Source: a virus. Taken from it: DNA of 23,593 bases. This document shows positions 16,863 to 23,593 of this stretch, in pieces; position 1 is the stretch's first letter; the number at the start of each line of letters is the position of its first letter. Below the pieces are notes generated by a model. The model saw only the letters and a program-made list of their open reading frames with translations. It made no database searches and was not told the origin of the DNA. The stretch covers positions 1 through 23,593 of the IMG/VR virus record IMGVR_UViG_3300048027_000059; one strand, given 5' to 3'. The position numbers and the translations under genes are program-made.

Positions 16863-17153
16863 ATGCAACCAGAAGTTGAAACCGACACTAACATAGTGAA
16901 AAGTAAACCGCCTGCTGCTGGTAAGGGCAGACCCAAAGGCGCTAAGAATAAAAACAGTAAGCTTTTAAAAGATGCGATCTTAGAGGCTGCTGAATTGGCC
17001 GGTGGTAAACGTGGCATGGTTGCCTATCTGGAACTGCAAGCAGAAGCAAACCCAACTGCTTTCATGGCTCTTATGGGAAAGGTTCTGCCATTACAGGTTA
17101 CGGGATCTGGCGCACAGGGCGAGCATGAGTTTGTCATCAAATGGAAGTCATAG
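16863..17153 (+). CDS. terS: Terminase small subunit
   Basis: A 96-residue protein with AAGGA upstream, ending in a 13-base overlap with terL. The basic GKGRPKGAKNKNSKLLKDAI start, the helical 'LEAAELAGGKRGMVAYLELQ' and 'NPTAFMALMGKVLPLQVTG' correspond to the short class of phage TerS proteins, with a DNA-binding N-terminus and a PLQV end. It would recognise the packaging site and stimulate the large subunit. It is short compared with TerS of other phages (about 140-180), but this size is common in phages with this terL type. Confidence 0.88.
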   Translation: MQPEVETDTNIVKSKPPAAGKGRPKGAKNKNSKLLKDAILEAAELAGGKRGMVAYLELQAEANPTAFMALMGKVLPLQVTGSGAQGEHEFVIKWKS

Positions 17154-18400
17154 AAATTGACTACACGCCAAGGCTACAAGCGCGAGAGTTTCATAACAGA
17201 TCAGAGCGTTTTGCAGTATTGGTCGCTCACAGACGATTTGGTAAGACTGTGGCTGCGGTTAATGATCTTATCAGAGATGCGCTAACCATTGATCTTCCTA
17301 ACGTCAGGGTGGCTTATATCGCCCCGTATCTCAGCCAATCAAAAGCAGTGGCTTGGGATTATGCGCTAGAGTACACGCAAGACATTCCCCACATCAAAGT
17401 TAATCATAGCGAGCTAAGGATAGACTTCCCCAATGGTGCAAGATTTCGGTTATTTGGCGCTGATAATTACAACGCTATGCGTGGTTTGTATTTTGATGCG
17501 GTAGTGCTTGACGAAATGGCTGACTTTCCTGCATCAGCATGGCCCACAGTCATTAGGCCAGCTATTGTAGATCGTAAGGGCCGCGCCACAATAATTGGGA
17601 CGCCTAAAGGCAAAAACGAATTTTGGGAAATGTATGACTATGCGAAGAACCATCCTGAGTGGTGGTGCAGGATGTTCAAAGCGTCTGAGACAGATATTCT
17701 TGATGAGGATGAGCTTGAAGAAGCTAAACGCACAATGGGCGAAGATCGCTATGAGCAAGAGTTTGAATGCAGCTTTGAAGCGGCGATCCAAGGGGCATAT
17801 TACGCGCAAGAAATGAAAACGGCTACCTCTGACGGTAGGGTGACAAATGTGCCGTATGATCCAGCAGTAGGAGTTACAACCGCATGGGATCTTGGCATAG
17901 GCGACAGCACAGCCATATTCTTTGCTCAGTATGTGGGGCAGGAGATCCGCATCATAGATTATTATGAAAGCAGCGGGGTTGGCTTAGATCATTATGCAAA
18001 GGTTCTTAGCGAAAAGGGCTATCACTATTCTGAGCATATTTTACCGCACGATGTGCAAGTTAAGGAGCTAGGCACAGGAAAGAGCCGCGTAGAGACTTTA
18101 GACGCGCTGGGCATATCTGATATCACAATAGCCCCAAAGCTTGCTGTAGATGACGGAATACAGGCCGCACGGTCTATGATTGCACGTTGCTGGTTTGATG
18201 AGAAGGATTGCGCCAGAGGTATAGAGGCACTACGGCAATATCGCAGGGAATTTGACGAAAGACTAAAAACTTGGCGAGGTAGACCATTGCACGATTGGAC
18301 ATCTCACGGCGCTGATGCATTCCGATATTTAGCCGTTGGAAAGCAGACCCAGCAGGATTGGGGTGAACCGATCAGAAGGAATTTGCGCGGCATAGCCTAA
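17141..18400 (+). CDS. terL: Terminase large subunit (packaging ATPase/nuclease)
   Basis: A 419-residue protein that powers DNA translocation into the prohead and cuts the concatemer. The ATPase domain has Walker A at RRFGKT (31-36), Walker B with FDAVVLDE (118-125, Asp124-Glu125) and a coupling motif IIGTPKG (151-157). The nuclease domain shows TTAWDLGIGDST (Asp250), PHD (302-304) and SHGADAFRY (388-396, Asp392), the acidic triad of RNase-H-type TerL nucleases. It is shorter than T4/T7 TerL but normal for this class. The start is in an overlap with terS and has no strong ribosome site, so it is translationally coupled. Confidence 0.96.
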   Translation: MEVIEIDYTPRLQAREFHNRSERFAVLVAHRRFGKTVAAVNDLIRDALTIDLPNVRVAYIAPYLSQSKAVAWDYALEYTQDIPHIKVNHSELRIDFPNGARFRLFGADNYNAMRGLYFDAVVLDEMADFPASAWPTVIRPAIVDRKGRATIIGTPKGKNEFWEMYDYAKNHPEWWCRMFKASETDILDEDELEEAKRTMGEDRYEQEFECSFEAAIQGAYYAQEMKTATSDGRVTNVPYDPAVGVTTAWDLGIGDSTAIFFAQYVGQEIRIIDYYESSGVGLDHYAKVLSEKGYHYSEHILPHDVQVKELGTGKSRVETLDALGISDITIAPKLAVDDGIQAARSMIARCWFDEKDCARGIEALRQYRREFDERLKTWRGRPLHDWTSHGADAFRYLAVGKQTQQDWGEPIRRNLRGIA

Positions 18401-18440
18401 TGTGGTAGTGTGCGGCATATATGCTCTGCGCGGGGTTGCT

Positions 18441-18660: not shown

Positions 18661-18711
18661 ATGCGTTGTGGATACAAAAAAAAGGGCCGCAAGGGCGGTA
18701 AAAAGAAATAA
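18661..18711 (+). CDS. 16-residue basic microprotein, tentative
   Basis: A 16-codon ORF (MRCGYKKKGRKGGKKK) that starts one base after the previous stop and ends in a TAATG junction with the next gene. Nine of its 16 residues are Lys or Arg. The exact fit between two genes argues that it is translated; otherwise the 51-base gap would be unexplained. It could also serve only as a coupling cistron for the Gly-rich protein. Confidence 0.45.
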   Translation: MRCGYKKKGRKGGKKK

Positions 18712-19778
18712 TGGCAACTTATAGTTTTACAAGTGGCGAAAACCTAAGTGGAAAAACATTTGGGGGAAGCGGAAACAAGAAACGTAAAGAAAAATTTAGC
18801 GGCGGTAATAATGTAAGGTCAAATGACAAAACAAAGTCTGGTTCTGGCGGCAAGGGCGGTGGGCGTCCTGATGTAAATCCAGAAACTTCTAAAGGTCAGT
18901 CGGCTATCGCTAAAAGTAGAGCAAAAAAAAGCGGGTTCGGATATTACGATAATAAAGGAAAATATGTTCCTGCTTATGTAGATATGTTTGACGGTGGCGG
19001 GATGAATACTTCTGACACATATTTTGCTGGCGGGCCTTTATCAAATATTCTGAACGTAATGAAGGTTGCGCCTAAAGGATCTGGCGATGTGCCGCGTGAA
19101 AGAATTGGCTATCGTGATTTAACCGATATGTTTGATGAAGGTGGCCCACAGGCAAGCGGTGGTGGCTTCAGAGGCGCGGGTGGCTTTAGTGGTCTAGGTA
19201 ATATAGCGAATATGCTTGCTGGCAATGAAAGCGAGCGCGTTGGTTATTATGATGAGGGTGGCCGGTTTTATGAGCCACCATCCCCGACACCATCCCCATC
19301 TGGTATTTTAAATGCTGTTCAGAATAACGATGCTTCCTCTCTAAGCTATGCAAATATGCCAATGGGTGAAGCGGGCCGTGGTGGAATACCCATGCAAGTG
19401 GGTAGACCCAATCCACAAATGGGTATCCCTATGCCGAAAGCTCCGCTTCCAGAAGGGCCAAGTGTTCAATCCGAAATGAACCTGCCAGATCCAATGAATT
19501 ACGGCGGTGGCCTTACGATGCAATTTGGAAAACCTATAATAAAAGATGAAACCTTTTTTGAACCGTTTGGAAGGCCTTATCGCAAAGGTTTTTCTGATGC
19601 AAATCAGGCTTCAGACATGGTTGCTCCTACTATGGCTCCTGCAACGCTATCAAGCGATGGTGGGCGTTTACAGCAAATGAAAGCGGATCTCTCAGCAATG
19701 GGCTTTGACCCTATGGGTTTCAGTGATGCTGATGTTATGGAATTGCATAAACTCTATGTTGGTGGGCTTGTTGAGTGA
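18711..19778 (+). CDS. Gly/Pro/Met-rich low-complexity protein with internal repeats
   Basis: A 355-residue protein of unusual composition. It has a Lys/Ser/Gly-rich N-terminus (about 1-75) and then repeated short units: 'YVDMFDGGG' at about 89-97, 'LTDMFDEGG' at about 137-145 and 'VGYYDEGG' at about 177-184, each preceded by 'GY(Y/R)D' or 'ERxGY'. Pro/Met-rich segments and a short helical end (FSDADVMELHKLYVGGLVE) follow. No fold is recognised; most is probably disordered. It lies between terL and the ART-like genes and ends in a GTGA overlap. A virion-internal or DNA-associated role is a guess. Confidence 0.75.
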   Translation: MATYSFTSGENLSGKTFGGSGNKKRKEKFSGGNNVRSNDKTKSGSGGKGGGRPDVNPETSKGQSAIAKSRAKKSGFGYYDNKGKYVPAYVDMFDGGGMNTSDTYFAGGPLSNILNVMKVAPKGSGDVPRERIGYRDLTDMFDEGGPQASGGGFRGAGGFSGLGNIANMLAGNESERVGYYDEGGRFYEPPSPTPSPSGILNAVQNNDASSLSYANMPMGEAGRGGIPMQVGRPNPQMGIPMPKAPLPEGPSVQSEMNLPDPMNYGGGLTMQFGKPIIKDETFFEPFGRPYRKGFSDANQASDMVAPTMAPATLSSDGGRLQQMKADLSAMGFDPMGFSDADVMELHKLYVGGLVE

Positions 19779-20038: not shown

Positions 20039-21106
20039 ATGTCTGGTCGTGGATTAAGAGCAGTTAGCGATCTTGGGCAAACCTTGCTTGGTTATTTGTT
20101 AAAAGCTGATGATATTGTGGCGAATACGCCTCAAAAGCAAATGGCAAAGCGGATCTTGCAAATGCGAGAGCAAGGTAATGCTTCAGCGGTTACAGATGAA
20201 ATGATGAACCAAGCAGATCCGCAAACAATGTTTAATTATACTCCGATGACTATGGACACGGCCTCAAGAATGGATCGCGCCAGAGCGCTTGGTTTCATCC
20301 CAGAGGAAAGACAATTTCATGGTTCATCTTCCCACGGGGATATAGATAGATTTGCCTTTGATGATCCAGAGCGTCCGATCTACACATCAAGCAACCCAGC
20401 AGTTTCTAATACATACACCGACAGAACAGACAGCGGTATGTATGATTTGTTGGTAAATCGCGGTGATCCTTTTGATTTCTCAGTAGACGCCAGTGGCGCA
20501 CATTACAGAGGTTTAAACCCATATATTAGGGCCGATGATGGAAATCAATTGTTCAATCATTTTCAAAAATCTGGAGTTGACATAGATACTGATAGCGAAA
20601 CGCCTTTGCAGTTTCCATTATCTGATGTTTTGACAGGGAAAGATGATGATCCCGACATTTTAAAAAGAATTGATTTTTTGCAGGGCGTAACGGGTTCAAC
20701 GCCTAATGAGATACCATTATCTCCTATGTCTACTGATACAATTGCAAACGCAATGCTTGACACTATGGAGATCCCTTCATCTCAAGATGGTGGAAGAATT
20801 ACATATGGCCGATTAGAAAACATTATTGATCGTGGCCCATATTCCCCGCGTCCTGATGAGGTTCCAGACATTTACAAGGATTATAAAGATTTTCAAGCAG
20901 CGGCAAGAAGCCCATCCACTGACCAAATCATAACTGATGCAACTAGAGTTAGGTCAAGGTTTGCGAGGTTTGATCCTGCGTTTTCTCATTTAAAAAATCT
21001 TACTGCTGCCGGTTTGCCAGTAAGTGTTGGTCTTTCATATTTGTTGAATGACCCCGACACTACAGAAAAAGAAATAGAGCAATATCTTGCAGAGGTTAAG
21101 GGCTAA
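20039..21106 (+). CDS. ADP-ribosyltransferase-like protein (polyvalent-protein type)
   Basis: A 355-residue protein with AGGTGGAAG upstream of its ATG. Residues about 77-160 match the ART domain seen in phage polyvalent proteins: MDRARALGF, then FHGSS (93-97, with His94 as candidate NAD-binding His), 'GDIDRFAFDDP' and 'PIYTSSNPAVSNTYTD' (114-128, with Tyr115 and Ser as NAD-site residues). A catalytic Glu of the H-Y-E type is not obvious from eye inspection. The C-terminal 200 residues are mixed helical. If active it would transfer ADP-ribose from NAD to host targets. The next gene starts in a TAATG junction. Confidence 0.68.
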   Translation: MSGRGLRAVSDLGQTLLGYLLKADDIVANTPQKQMAKRILQMREQGNASAVTDEMMNQADPQTMFNYTPMTMDTASRMDRARALGFIPEERQFHGSSSHGDIDRFAFDDPERPIYTSSNPAVSNTYTDRTDSGMYDLLVNRGDPFDFSVDASGAHYRGLNPYIRADDGNQLFNHFQKSGVDIDTDSETPLQFPLSDVLTGKDDDPDILKRIDFLQGVTGSTPNEIPLSPMSTDTIANAMLDTMEIPSSQDGGRITYGRLENIIDRGPYSPRPDEVPDIYKDYKDFQAAARSPSTDQIITDATRVRSRFARFDPAFSHLKNLTAAGLPVSVGLSYLLNDPDTTEKEIEQYLAEVKG

Positions 21107-22383
21107 TGTCTGGATTTATAGATTGGCTAATGTCTAACAGAGGCGCTTTACAGCCAGAAAACCGTGATCCGCGTGAAAGTATCGGTAGACAGTATTTAAG
21201 AGAGGCTGCATCAGATTTGAATGATGCTGTAAATGCTTACGAAGTACCTTCAATGAACCCTGTTTTTACACTGCCAAAGTTACTTCTTGCGTTAGATCCT
21301 GCAATTAGATCAGGAACAGGTGCGGCAGTATCAACGGCTCAATCTCTTTCTGAAGGGTTCCCATTTTTTCAAGATGAAAAATCAAGTGACAGAATGGGCC
21401 GTGATTTAATTGCGTTAGTTGATGAAAGCCCCGTTGAAATGATGGTCGCGCCTTATGCGGGCATATTAGATAAAGCTGGTGAGTTTGGTTCTATGGTTAA
21501 GAGATCACGGCCATATCTTCTTGGCGATACATTGGAGGGAAACCCTGATGTTATGAATTTGCCAGAAAAGGGCAGACCGGCAGCAGTAGGTATTCCAGAT
21601 GAGGGCAGATTTTCTTCTAGGCCAATTGCTGAAGTGCAGAGCGCATCTCGCAATTATATGAATGAAGCTGGCATAGATATTCCAGAATATATTGAATACC
21701 CAGAATTAGATCAGCAGCGGGCCAAATATATCGCAGCAGCGTATGAGCGCATGAAGCACGATCCAGACAACCCAGATGTAAAAGCAGCATATGAGGCTCT
21801 TAAAAACGAAACTATGGCGCAGTATGAAGCGCTAAGAGATACGGGAATAGATTTTAAGTTTTTGCGCGAAGGCCAGACAGATCCATATGCAAAAAGTCCC
21901 GCGATGGGTTATCAGGATGTTGTGGAAAACAAGGAATTGACTGTATTTCCTACTGACTTTGGCTACGGATCTGGCGAATTTGATGCATCAGACAACCCGT
22001 TATTAGGTTTTGTAGGTCAGGTTGGCGATAAAGAAGATGCTGTTGCTAATGACGCTTTCCGCGTTGTGCATGATATGTTTGGGCATTTAGGCGCAGGAAA
22101 CCCGCAGTTTAGAGCAAAAGGTGAAGAACGCGCTTGGTTAGAGCATAGCAGGATGTTTAGTCCAGAAGCCCGAAAGGCTATGACAACTGAAACACGCGGT
22201 CAAAATAGCTGGTTAAATAGCGGGCCATTTGCAGATCAGAATGCTACCGCTTTAGGCGCTGACACAGTGTTTGCCGATCAGAAAGCCGGTTTGCTGCCAG
22301 ATTGGGCTGTAGATCCACAGGGTATGCCCAAAGGCATTGAGCGTGATGAGCTAGACGAAATTATTAAGAAGTGGGGCAGATAA
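21106..22383 (+). CDS. HDxFGH-motif protein, putative metal-dependent enzyme (polyvalent-protein module)
   Basis: A 425-residue protein. Residues 1-170 are poorly conserved helical sequence with a possible membrane-active stretch. Residues about 172-260 form a helical linker (PIAEVQSASRNYMNE, YIAAAYERMKHDPDNP). Residues about 280-375 hold the conserved core: 'ANDAFRVVHDMFGH' (His322, Asp323, Phe325, Gly326, His327), 'KGEERAWLEHSRMF' (Glu340/Glu341, Trp344, His347) and TTETRGQNSW (360-369). This box recurs in giant phage polyvalent proteins. HDxFGH followed by acidic residues also resembles the iron site of aromatic amino-acid hydroxylases (HDxxGH...E). The similarity is by motif only. Confidence 0.65.
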   Translation: MSGFIDWLMSNRGALQPENRDPRESIGRQYLREAASDLNDAVNAYEVPSMNPVFTLPKLLLALDPAIRSGTGAAVSTAQSLSEGFPFFQDEKSSDRMGRDLIALVDESPVEMMVAPYAGILDKAGEFGSMVKRSRPYLLGDTLEGNPDVMNLPEKGRPAAVGIPDEGRFSSRPIAEVQSASRNYMNEAGIDIPEYIEYPELDQQRAKYIAAAYERMKHDPDNPDVKAAYEALKNETMAQYEALRDTGIDFKFLREGQTDPYAKSPAMGYQDVVENKELTVFPTDFGYGSGEFDASDNPLLGFVGQVGDKEDAVANDAFRVVHDMFGHLGAGNPQFRAKGEERAWLEHSRMFSPEARKAMTTETRGQNSWLNSGPFADQNATALGADTVFADQKAGLLPDWAVDPQGMPKGIERDELDEIIKKWGR

Positions 22384-22961
22384 TGAGAAAGGGTTTACGG
22401 CAAGCTTCACAGTTAGCAAAAGGCTTGCTTGATTTGTTTCATTACTCTGACGAAGTGCGGCCAGTTATTGATCCATTGCAACATCTGAGCAATCCCAATA
22501 TTCGCGGTATGGAGCGTGAGTTGGCATATGGAACGAGGTTATCAAAGTATGGTGAAGTGCCAGAGGTAATTTATGATCCTTACCCGCCACAATCTTATTT
22601 TGGAACATCAAGCTACTCTCCCGAAACTGGTTTAGGTGATGTTGTCCACAAAACAACGGCTGATGAAGAAGCTTTCTACGATGTATCCGATGATTTAAAA
22701 AAGTTTATGCCTTTGGCGCGTGAAGAAGTGATGGACAGATTAACGGAGTTTGATAAGAAATTTACACCTTATGAGGTCAACCTGATGGTGCAAGGCAGGG
22801 CCATGAGTTTAGCAAAAGAGGCTAAATACTTGGGTCTTAGCAATAGAAAATACAGGCCAGACGTATATACTCAATTTAACGAAGTGATCCCGCAAGAGGT
22901 TCAACCGTTAGGGCAAGAAATGATGTCATTGGTGGAATACCTAGAGAGCATAAAAAAATGA
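22383..22961 (+). CDS. Second ADP-ribosyltransferase-like protein
   Basis: A 192-residue protein starting at the ATG of a TAATG junction with GTGGGG upstream; GTG at 22371 is the alternative. Motifs follow the order of another ART-like module found in phage polyvalent proteins: LFHYS (18-22), VIDP (28-31), RGMERE (41-46), YFG (72-74), ETGLG (81-85) and FYDVSDD (98-104). The second half is helical ('LAREEVMDRLTEFDKKFT'). In related modules the sequence is 'HYS...LDP...G..G.ER.R...YYG...E.GLG...YD...DP'. Catalytic Glu and target are unknown. It follows the HDxFGH gene and ends in an ATGA overlap. Confidence 0.65.
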   Translation: MRKGLRQASQLAKGLLDLFHYSDEVRPVIDPLQHLSNPNIRGMERELAYGTRLSKYGEVPEVIYDPYPPQSYFGTSSYSPETGLGDVVHKTTADEEAFYDVSDDLKKFMPLAREEVMDRLTEFDKKFTPYEVNLMVQGRAMSLAKEAKYLGLSNRKYRPDVYTQFNEVIPQEVQPLGQEMMSLVEYLESIKK

Positions 22962-23131
22962 CAGTATATGAGATAGAAGTTGATGATATGGGGCTGGGCT
23001 TAATGCGCAGTGACCCATTTTATAAAAGCATTGATGTAGTGAGTGAAAAGCCTACCGGCACAATGCAGAAGCGTTATTTAGTAAAAGTTGTTGAGCGAGA
23101 AGAAAACGCATATTACGCAAAAAGCGTTTAA
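22958..23131 (+). CDS. Small protein coupled to the second ART-like gene
   Basis: A 57-residue protein whose ATG overlaps the previous stop (ATGA). The sequence MTVYEIEVDDMGLGLMRSDP continues with 'FYKSIDVVSEKPTGTMQKRY' and ends 'LVKVVEREENAYYAKSV'. It reads as a small beta-rich soluble protein. No family is recognised. Because it is coupled to an ART-like gene it could be an immunity or folding partner, but nothing in the sequence proves that. Confidence 0.65.
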   Translation: MTVYEIEVDDMGLGLMRSDPFYKSIDVVSEKPTGTMQKRYLVKVVEREENAYYAKSV

Positions 23132-23185: not shown

Positions 23186-23593
23186 ATGGCGATCACAACT
23201 TACGCAGAGTTACAAACTGCGATTGGCGATTGGCTAAACCGCGCCGATCTTGACCAAAAGATACCTGATTTTATTCGGTTGGCTGAAAGCACGTTAAATG
23301 ATGTTCTGCGATCTGCTGATATGGTTACGCAATCAACATCTATAGCAATTACGAGTGGCCGCGCTACATTGCCAGCAGATGCTTTAGAGATTGTGTACGC
23401 GCAAGTAGCGTCATCTGAGGATGAGCCATTAGAGCAAATTACACCGCAGCAGCTTACAATGCTACGCAGAACGCGCACAAGAAACACCGCAAATCCTAGA
23501 TTTTACGCAATTGTTGGCCGTGATATAGTGGTCACTCCGACACCGGCATCTGGATCTTTGGATTTGGATTATTATCAAAGATTGCCAGTTTTG
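23186..23593 (+). CDS. Tail-adaptor (head-tail connection) protein, 3' end outside window
   Basis: 136 codons are open to the end of the window. The ATG follows TTAGGAGAGTTAC, one of the best ribosome sites here. The sequence begins MAITTYAELQTAIGDWLNRA, then 'DQKIPDFIRLAESTLNDVLR', 'ITSGRATLPADALEIVYAQV' and 'RFYAIVGRDIVVTPTPASGS'. This is the common phage adaptor layout: helix 'YAEL...I..WLNR.DL...IPDFI.LAE..(L/I)N..LR', then 'LP.D.LE...' and 'Y...G..I...P'. It would sit below the portal and bind the tail. A 54-base gap precedes it. Confidence 0.85.
   Translation, partial: MAITTYAELQTAIGDWLNRADLDQKIPDFIRLAESTLNDVLRSADMVTQSTSIAITSGRATLPADALEIVYAQVASSEDEPLEQITPQQLTMLRRTRTRNTANPRFYAIVGRDIVVTPTPASGSLDLDYYQRLPVL

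Follow-up and report, generated by a model that had tools for sequence, protein, structure and literature searches.

Phage polyvalent proteins hold several disparate domains in one polypeptide, have these domains in common with other giant proteins, and are encoded among late or virion genes. According to Iyer et al. (2017; PMC5512222), their injection into the host was inferred from this late-gene location, and solo versions of their domains also exist, some of them near structural genes. The same source names the T4 protein Alt as a packaged, late-made phage ADP-ribosyltransferase (ART). In a 2022 study (PMC9503650), some 44% of the phage ARTs recovered occurred in contexts suggesting packaging into the head, and ART genes near terminase and portal were reported. 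Here we analyze a block of four genes, A to D, in the virus contig IMGVR_UViG_3300048027_000059, whose full 23,593 bases are called the window below. On balance, we lean toward the reading that A, B and C are an unfused set of early effectors, of which packaging is the weakest step. What is established is that the genes are homologous to domains of giant polyvalent-type proteins, that the A family resembles ARTs at the profile level, that B is conserved in the manner of an enzyme, and that the block sits among packaging and structural genes.

Results

A real and conserved gene block separates terL from the SU10-type adaptor. A preliminary description of this DNA had placed coupled genes and a small partner there, among virion genes, and the open reading frames (ORFs) and both borders were found as claimed. 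A, B, C and D are four separate, co-oriented ORFs. The block and its borders, with protein lengths in amino acids (aa), are as follows.

17141..18400, + strand: terL, left border of the block (PF03237, 1.7e-7; phrog_2, 6e-34)
20039..21106, + strand: gene A, 355 aa, probably a diverged ART (extended-profile hhalign to ART domains, 73%)
21106..22383, + strand: gene B, 425 aa, HDxFGH-family protein (phrog_3170, function unknown, 2.6e-13)
22383..22961, + strand: gene C, 192 aa from ATG 22383 (the listed start is GTG 22371), homologous to the segment behind B in the proteins of loci L038 and L039
22958..23131, + strand: gene D, 57 aa, function unknown, found in related loci (phrog_17191 only, at 0.023)
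23186..23593, + strand: SU10-type adaptor, right border, running off the record (PF24175, 3.1e-22; phrog_2941, 8e-33)

The start of C is better placed at ATG 22383, which gives MRKGLRQASQLAKGLLDLFHYS, than at the listed GTG. With this start, the TAATG and ATGA junctions described earlier hold within the block, since A/B and B/C are joined by TAATG and C/D by an ATGA overlap. They do not extend to the DUF6321 gene upstream of A, which merely abuts it (a TAG stop directly followed by ATG, with no TAATG).

The HDxFGH domain announced for one of the genes is indeed present, in B.

22069..22086, + strand: HDMFGH motif, residues 322-327 of B

Relatives of B were located by sequence patterns: VVHDMFGH was among six used in the scan of viral proteins, ND.FR.VHD or ..ET.GQ served for the family alignment over viral contigs, and ND.FR.VHD or GQNS.N.G for bacterial genomes. 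The protein scan found B relatives in 39 viral contigs, with 39 of 43 pattern stretches confirmed; in the family alignment at least 595 of 600 stretches were confirmed as B, and the best 80 were kept. By tblastn at E 0.01, B is matched in 200 of 50,697 phage records, with Mycobacterium phages accounting for 187 of the 200; none of the matches covers 80% of B, and in the rows listed the matched part falls within residues 125-425. Four plasmid records carry B as well, each as a hypothetical protein. The window's B matched no Pfam model at E 1, no LPD-series model, and no NCBIfam model at E 0.1. Three bacterial B proteins likewise gave no Pfam match at 0.01, and six B-containing proteins no NCBIfam match at 0.1. 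One weak Pfam match, DUF1989 (0.012, below cut-off), overlaps the B region of Sebata gp107.

B recurs within polyvalent-type proteins of 1000-4100 aa and as solo genes adjoining portal genes. Among frames with at least 200 model positions (n = 126, overlapping loci counted apart), 95 are shorter than 700 aa, 30 reach 1000 aa or more, and a single one lies between. The domain is hosted by a "large polyvalent protein" of Pag-Yong1 (2772 aa), which by Pfam also holds LPD38, by a ctQRb9 protein (3209 aa) with LPD22 and ART-PolyVal (1e-19), by a Mel-JY33 protein of about 4012 aa according to annotated coordinates, and by an 847-aa protein of ct7L0027, where the gene directly before it holds GNAT, M15 and ART-PolyVal (1e-17). 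At the smaller end, Sebata gp107 (433 aa) carries B a few genes past the major head gene. When 24 giant B-proteins were scanned with Pfam, ART-PolyVal was found in 8, DUF7178 in 5, LPD38 in 2, and MuF, PBECR5, M23, LPD23, DUF6782 and DUF6861 in one each; domain positions were returned for only one of the 24. The 2460-aa protein of L096 unites an A-like stretch (i-E 1.3e-4), B and ART-PolyVal. In all seven loci chosen for testing, B is adjoined by a portal gene (match to phrog_156, 1216 or 145 with E of at most 1e-100), before B in L037-L039, L097 and L109 and after it in L064 and L070, with at most one small gene between.

Two further B proteins have unusual layouts. A 566-aa ORF behind a portal gene (L037:1683-3383) joins an N-terminal ART-PolyVal-like stretch (1.2e-3, below cut-off) to B, a minimal fused form. 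In a 586-aa ORF (L132:1605-3362), which has no Pfam match, an insertion of about 155 aa lies within the B domain; by eye, a YRAVP...GDWITLSP motif makes it look like another ART type.

The AlphaFold model of B, built from 53 rows, has an overall predicted local distance difference test score (pLDDT) of 85.9.

21571..22380, + strand: conserved domain of B, residues 156-425 (from residue 151 onward, ten-residue pLDDT means lie at 81-99, mostly over 90)

The N-terminal 150 residues or so are mostly helical and modeled with lower confidence (block means 48-86). In the conserved domain the model places two His residues on one helix and a Glu on a later helix, with strands before them. Against predicted viral structures, 21 of 160 matches reached E ≤ 0.001; those with names are phage proteins, one each labeled "large polyvalent", "ART-PolyVal-like" and "head morphogenesis". 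Sequence-profile searches of solved structures gave a best E of 0.28 for B and 0.4 for one bacterial B.

Conservation was assessed over 129 segments, 111 after a redundancy cut, bacterial matches with envelopes shorter than 140 residues having been excluded beforehand; the bacterial-genome rows include prophage giants. H322, D323, H327 and E362 are found in all 51 phage rows and in 59 of the 60 bacterial-genome rows, the remaining one having a gap. E340 and H347, too, hold in all 51 phage rows and in each of the 59 bacterial-genome rows with the column, G339 and Q366 are likewise unvarying where present in these 51 and 60 rows, and the motif residue G326 is Ala in eight bacterial rows. Because the loci were picked by patterns that contain some of these residues, the conservation of the pattern residues is partly built in; E340 and H347 occur in none of the search patterns, H327 only in one pattern of the viral protein scan, and E362 only in one of the family alignment. 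Judged from the alignment, the conservation pattern of B is enzyme-like, and H322 and H327 of the HDMFGH motif together with E362 form a putative metal site.

The scan of bacterial genomes confirmed 81 B loci, of which 80 were kept. Here B is a solo gene of about 235-305 aa, found in Aureispira, Chryseobacterium, Enterovibrio, Ruegeria, Pelagibius and many actinomycetes, besides prophage-like giants. The gene is rare: among 247 genomes from the phylum of the Chryseobacterium genome there were two matches, to this genome and, weakly (1e-4), to one other. Neighborhoods were taken from simple gene calls in 12 of the 80 loci, as a clustering over 41 loci was swamped by antisense frames at high GC. 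In five of the 12 (L153, L155, L156, L157 and L166, whose titles point to Bacteroidota, Gamma- and Alphaproteobacteria), a conserved protein of about 355-390 aa adjoins B or lies one gene off on the same strand. Four of these proteins are 44-56% identical to that of L157, and the two that were scanned carry a NAD domain of the S-adenosylhomocysteine (SAH) hydrolase type (PF00670, 1.6e-10 and 5.8e-10), with ahcY far under its equivalog cut-off. In L153 and L155 the gene after B encodes DUF3293, which L166 has as a fusion with B; a homocysteine S-methyltransferase gene adjoins B in L183 and lies about 3.4 kb downstream in Nocardia L188. Since B stands beside an SAH-hydrolase-like gene in five bacterial loci, it is probably an enzyme. 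The preliminary description had overlooked these bacterial members, as well as the swappable A slot and the leader common to A and C described below.

Gene A of the window has no Pfam match, including to ART-PolyVal (PF18760). That model is reached by 4 of 16 A-family members, at best with E 0.025 and 15.8 bits against a curated cut-off of 31.2. An extended profile, consisting of the 16 rows, gp6 of Octadecabacter Antarctic DB virus 2 (OANV2) and three relatives, aligns to ART domains with an hhalign probability of 73% (E 3e-5, score 40.5); the best of 100 column shuffles scored 15.3, and three unrelated profiles scored at most 21.1. The A rows combined with the A-like stretch of L096 gave 60.5%. 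The family aligns to the N-terminal half of ART-PolyVal, including its conserved His, but differs in a long insertion and a conserved RSRFARFDP tail.

20306..20428, + strand: residues 90-130 of A, with HGS and the second ART motif, a stretch that hhalign matches to the ART profile
20945..21028, + strand: residues 303-330 of A, C-terminal RSRFARFDP...HLKNL segment, common to OANV2 gp6

His, Tyr and Asp are the ART active-site set given by Iyer et al. (PMC5512222). H94, Y126 and D264 of A are invariant in the 16-row alignment, which does not by itself assign the catalytic Tyr and Asp.

OANV2 is a cultured podovirus in which gp6 occupies the same slot as A, between terL and a gene of PHROG 2941, the PHROG of the window's adaptor. 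In a two-sequence search gp6 matches both the A profile (3e-22) and the ART profile (5e-9), and it reaches ART-PolyVal in Pfam at 7.7e-4, below cut-off. It differs from A in its length of 493 aa, with an extra N-terminal part, and contains no match to B or C. By eye, the N-terminal half of gp6 looks ParB-like, and the small basic gene before it resembles the window's gene at 18402. A search of phage records by tblastn with the window's A gave no match, and with the A of L031 one; against solved structures the A profile reached a best E of 1.5. The earlier proposal that A is ART-like is thus supported by the extended family profile and by gp6 in the same slot, but not at the Pfam cut-off. Judged from these profiles, A is probably a diverged ART.

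Gene C is homologous to the segment directly behind B in the giant proteins of L038 and L039, both of which immediately follow a portal gene. A reverse search from the L039 segment finds C genes with E 7e-8 to 1e-4 over segment residues 9-90. Invariant residues of C include H24, S26, Y103 and D104 (numbered from the listed start). No match was obtained by tblastn against phage records with C of the window or of L031, and the best E of the C profile against solved structures was 0.71. The earlier assignment of C as a second ART-like domain is not supported: two C alignments reached ART domains with hhalign probabilities of 0.5% and 0.4%, and the AlphaFold model has a pLDDT of 49.

A and C have similar, basic-amphipathic N-termini, exemplified in L031 by MARRGIDTASRLAKGILDLL for A and MARRGLNTIGRVARGLLDLF for C. 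Aligned by hhalign, the two families match with 89.6% (E 1.9e-6) over 36 columns confined to this leader. A C-leader profile run over 1458 frames retrieves, besides C itself, A proteins first (L031, 4.8e-6); 13 A frames, three of them from one contig, score below 0.1, and no other protein scores below 0.22. The A type of the window gives E ~6 with this profile, so that its likeness to the leader depends on intermediates. The fused C segments of L038 and L039 have no leader. By analogy with the T4 internal proteins, our guess is that the leader could be a sorting signal into the head.

The surroundings of B were compared in 71 loci from 64 contigs, chosen as the window's group and its nearest solo-B relatives. 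Upstream of B, A is present in 33, an unrelated gene of about 135 aa in 18, and neither in 13, while in 7 the contig start is too close. C follows B in 55 of the 71. The A slot is therefore swappable. In L010, L016-L018, L022 and L027-L029 it holds the ~135-aa gene, of unknown function, and the neighbors stay. Mosaic exchange is seen in L013/L042, where one contig has an A 98.6% and a B 85.9% identical to those of the window. In L016, frame changes break terL and C relative to its relatives, through assembly errors or in reality.

Packaging and virion genes lie around the block. The left end of the record holds portal (phrog_1216, 1e-135), scaffold and major head genes, and from terL the order is a small basic gene (18402), a low-complexity gene, the DUF6321 gene, A, B, C, D and the adaptor.

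18711-19778: Gly/Pro-rich low-complexity gene, 355 aa
19775..20038, + strand: DUF6321 basic protein, 87 aa, immediately 5' of A (PF19846, 1.8e-17)

The low-complexity gene varies strongly even among near-identical relatives, with conserved blocks kept. The DUF6321 protein is 95-100% identical in near relatives where it was matched. L002-L005 and other loci have a second adaptor paralogue (about 36% identical) some 680 bases past the start of the first.

Discussion

Giant proteins of the polyvalent type (for the class, see PMC5512222) were found here with the B and C domains and an A-like stretch; such proteins are encoded among virion genes, as is the block, flanked by terL and the adaptor. 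The block differs in that each domain has its own gene, and neither the window's B nor any solo B member scanned has a Pfam match, in the LPD series or elsewhere. We file the block as an unfused variant of polyvalent proteins and not as a member. The link to these proteins, as first proposed, is largely right: it holds for B and probably for A (L096, the 8 of 24 giants with ART-PolyVal, OANV2 gp6), and for C as the fused neighbor of B in L038 and L039, but not for C as an ART.

We propose that A, B and C may constitute a compact host-takeover set of the polyvalent type, encoded as separate, translationally coupled late genes. A would be a diverged ART, probably modifying host proteins; B would be an enzyme, probably dependent on a metal, whose family is undescribed, whose putative site is formed by H322, H327 and E362, and in which E340, H347 and Q366 are conserved; C would be a third polyvalent-associated domain. 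Made together with the head and tail genes, the three proteins would go into the particle, perhaps with the A/C leader as their guide, and would be ejected along with the DNA, modifying the host at an early stage. T4 Alt, as a packaged, late-made phage ART (PMC5512222), offers a model for how A may work. We infer catalysis, metal, targets, timing, packaging, ejection and the role of the leader, and packaging and injection solely from gene order and precedent.

Several observations weigh against this proposal. Every A member scanned falls below the Pfam ART cut-off, the 16-row A alignment alone reaches ART at only 14% by hhalign, and the 73% depends on adding gp6, itself ART-like, and three relatives, so that the argument is partly transitive via gp6. 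Moreover, the Tyr of the second motif (strand 2) is Phe in several A proteins, and C has no ART signal. For B, none of 60 Foldseek matches in the PDB reached E ≤ 0.001, and the VIA rows cover mostly residues 11-116; because they barely touch residues 156-425, we make no claim of a new fold. B is also a chromosomal bacterial gene, and an injected-effector role is therefore not inherent to it. Streptomyces phage Dagobah has a minimal 188-aa B gene (L047:1734-2300) just within the terminal repeat; none of the neighbors displayed is annotated as a structural gene.

The last two observations would also suit a role of A, B and C within the producing cell, as unpackaged metabolic or anti-defense enzymes. 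Bacterial relatives of B lie beside metabolic-looking genes, the solo B of Dagobah lies away from annotated structural genes, and the literature searched held packaging data for no member: virion proteomics was not found for mycobacteriophage relatives of B among the search results listed, and the passages of the OANV2 paper that were searched gave none, with no use of "mass spectrometry" or "SDS-PAGE". We nevertheless regard this role as somewhat unlikely, as the position between terL and the adaptor, the portal beside B in all seven chosen loci and MuF in one of 24 giants fit particle-borne proteins better. The location among structural genes, and the mostly helical, less confidently modeled N-terminal region of B (48-86), could instead indicate ordinary, noncatalytic head or neck assembly proteins. 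Such a function appears quite improbable in view of the solo bacterial B genes, the invariant H/E/Q pattern of B, the replacement of A by an unrelated ~135-aa gene with its neighbors kept, and the ART similarity of the A family. We thus retain the unfused effector set as the preferred reading.

Which chemistry B would perform is a separate question. Aromatic amino acid hydroxylases bind iron through two His residues and one Glu. A relationship of B to these tetrahydropterin-dependent, 2-His-1-Glu iron enzymes (PF00351) is suggested by its HD.FGH motif, which corresponds to H[DE].FGH in the hydroxylases fetched from bacterial genomes (30 of 32 rows used, two from a split match being dropped), and by the invariant Glu 35 residues beyond it. 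The two motifs are paired by hhalign with a score of 32.6, against a maximum of 21.0 in 100 column shuffles and 19.4 for the reversed alignment, and human tyrosine hydroxylase (2xsn) appears in the Foldseek list of B. However, the alignment spans only 9-13 columns at a probability of 7-16%, the Foldseek E values of 2xsn (6.7 and 8.2) are at chance level, PF00351 has no match in the window, and similarity beyond the motif was not detected; the relationship is unlikely, and we treat it as a motif-level lead. Polyvalent proteins often carry zincin-like metallopeptidases, and in one set described by Iyer et al. (PMC5512222) four residues separate the two His. B might be a variant of this kind that would process neighboring proteins, since its model has two His on one helix and a Glu on a later helix, after strands. 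This assignment is very doubtful, because all 51 phage rows and, with one gap, 59 of the 60 bacterial-genome rows have Asp323 in place of the catalytic Glu of HEXXH, the SAH-hydrolase-like protein linked to B in bacteria hints at chemistry on small molecules, and no peptidase family matched the window's B.

Conclusions

Solo polyvalent domains were already known (PMC5512222); the new part is the B family, for which searches of the literature with HDxFGH-type strings, solo polyvalent proteins and Pag-Yong1 found no paper. B is also the most valuable part, being a large, unmodeled, enzyme-like family with bacterial members in a conserved neighborhood. A bolder and only tentative possibility is that B founds an undescribed family of hydroxylase-like 2-His-1-Glu metalloenzymes, with SAH-hydrolase-like and DUF3293 partners in bacteria, which phages may have recruited as an early effector, carried as fused or solo cargo, the A/C leader sorting the solo cargo into the head.

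Expression and testing of giant polyvalent proteins are difficult, whereas the same modules, as genes of 190-430 aa, can be assayed directly one by one, and OANV2 is a phage in culture that carries an A-like gene. With hundreds of phage loci, bacterial members and a confident predicted fold, a single enzyme study of B would annotate many proteins. If the leader does direct cargo to the head, it would serve as a packaging signal that is both short and portable.

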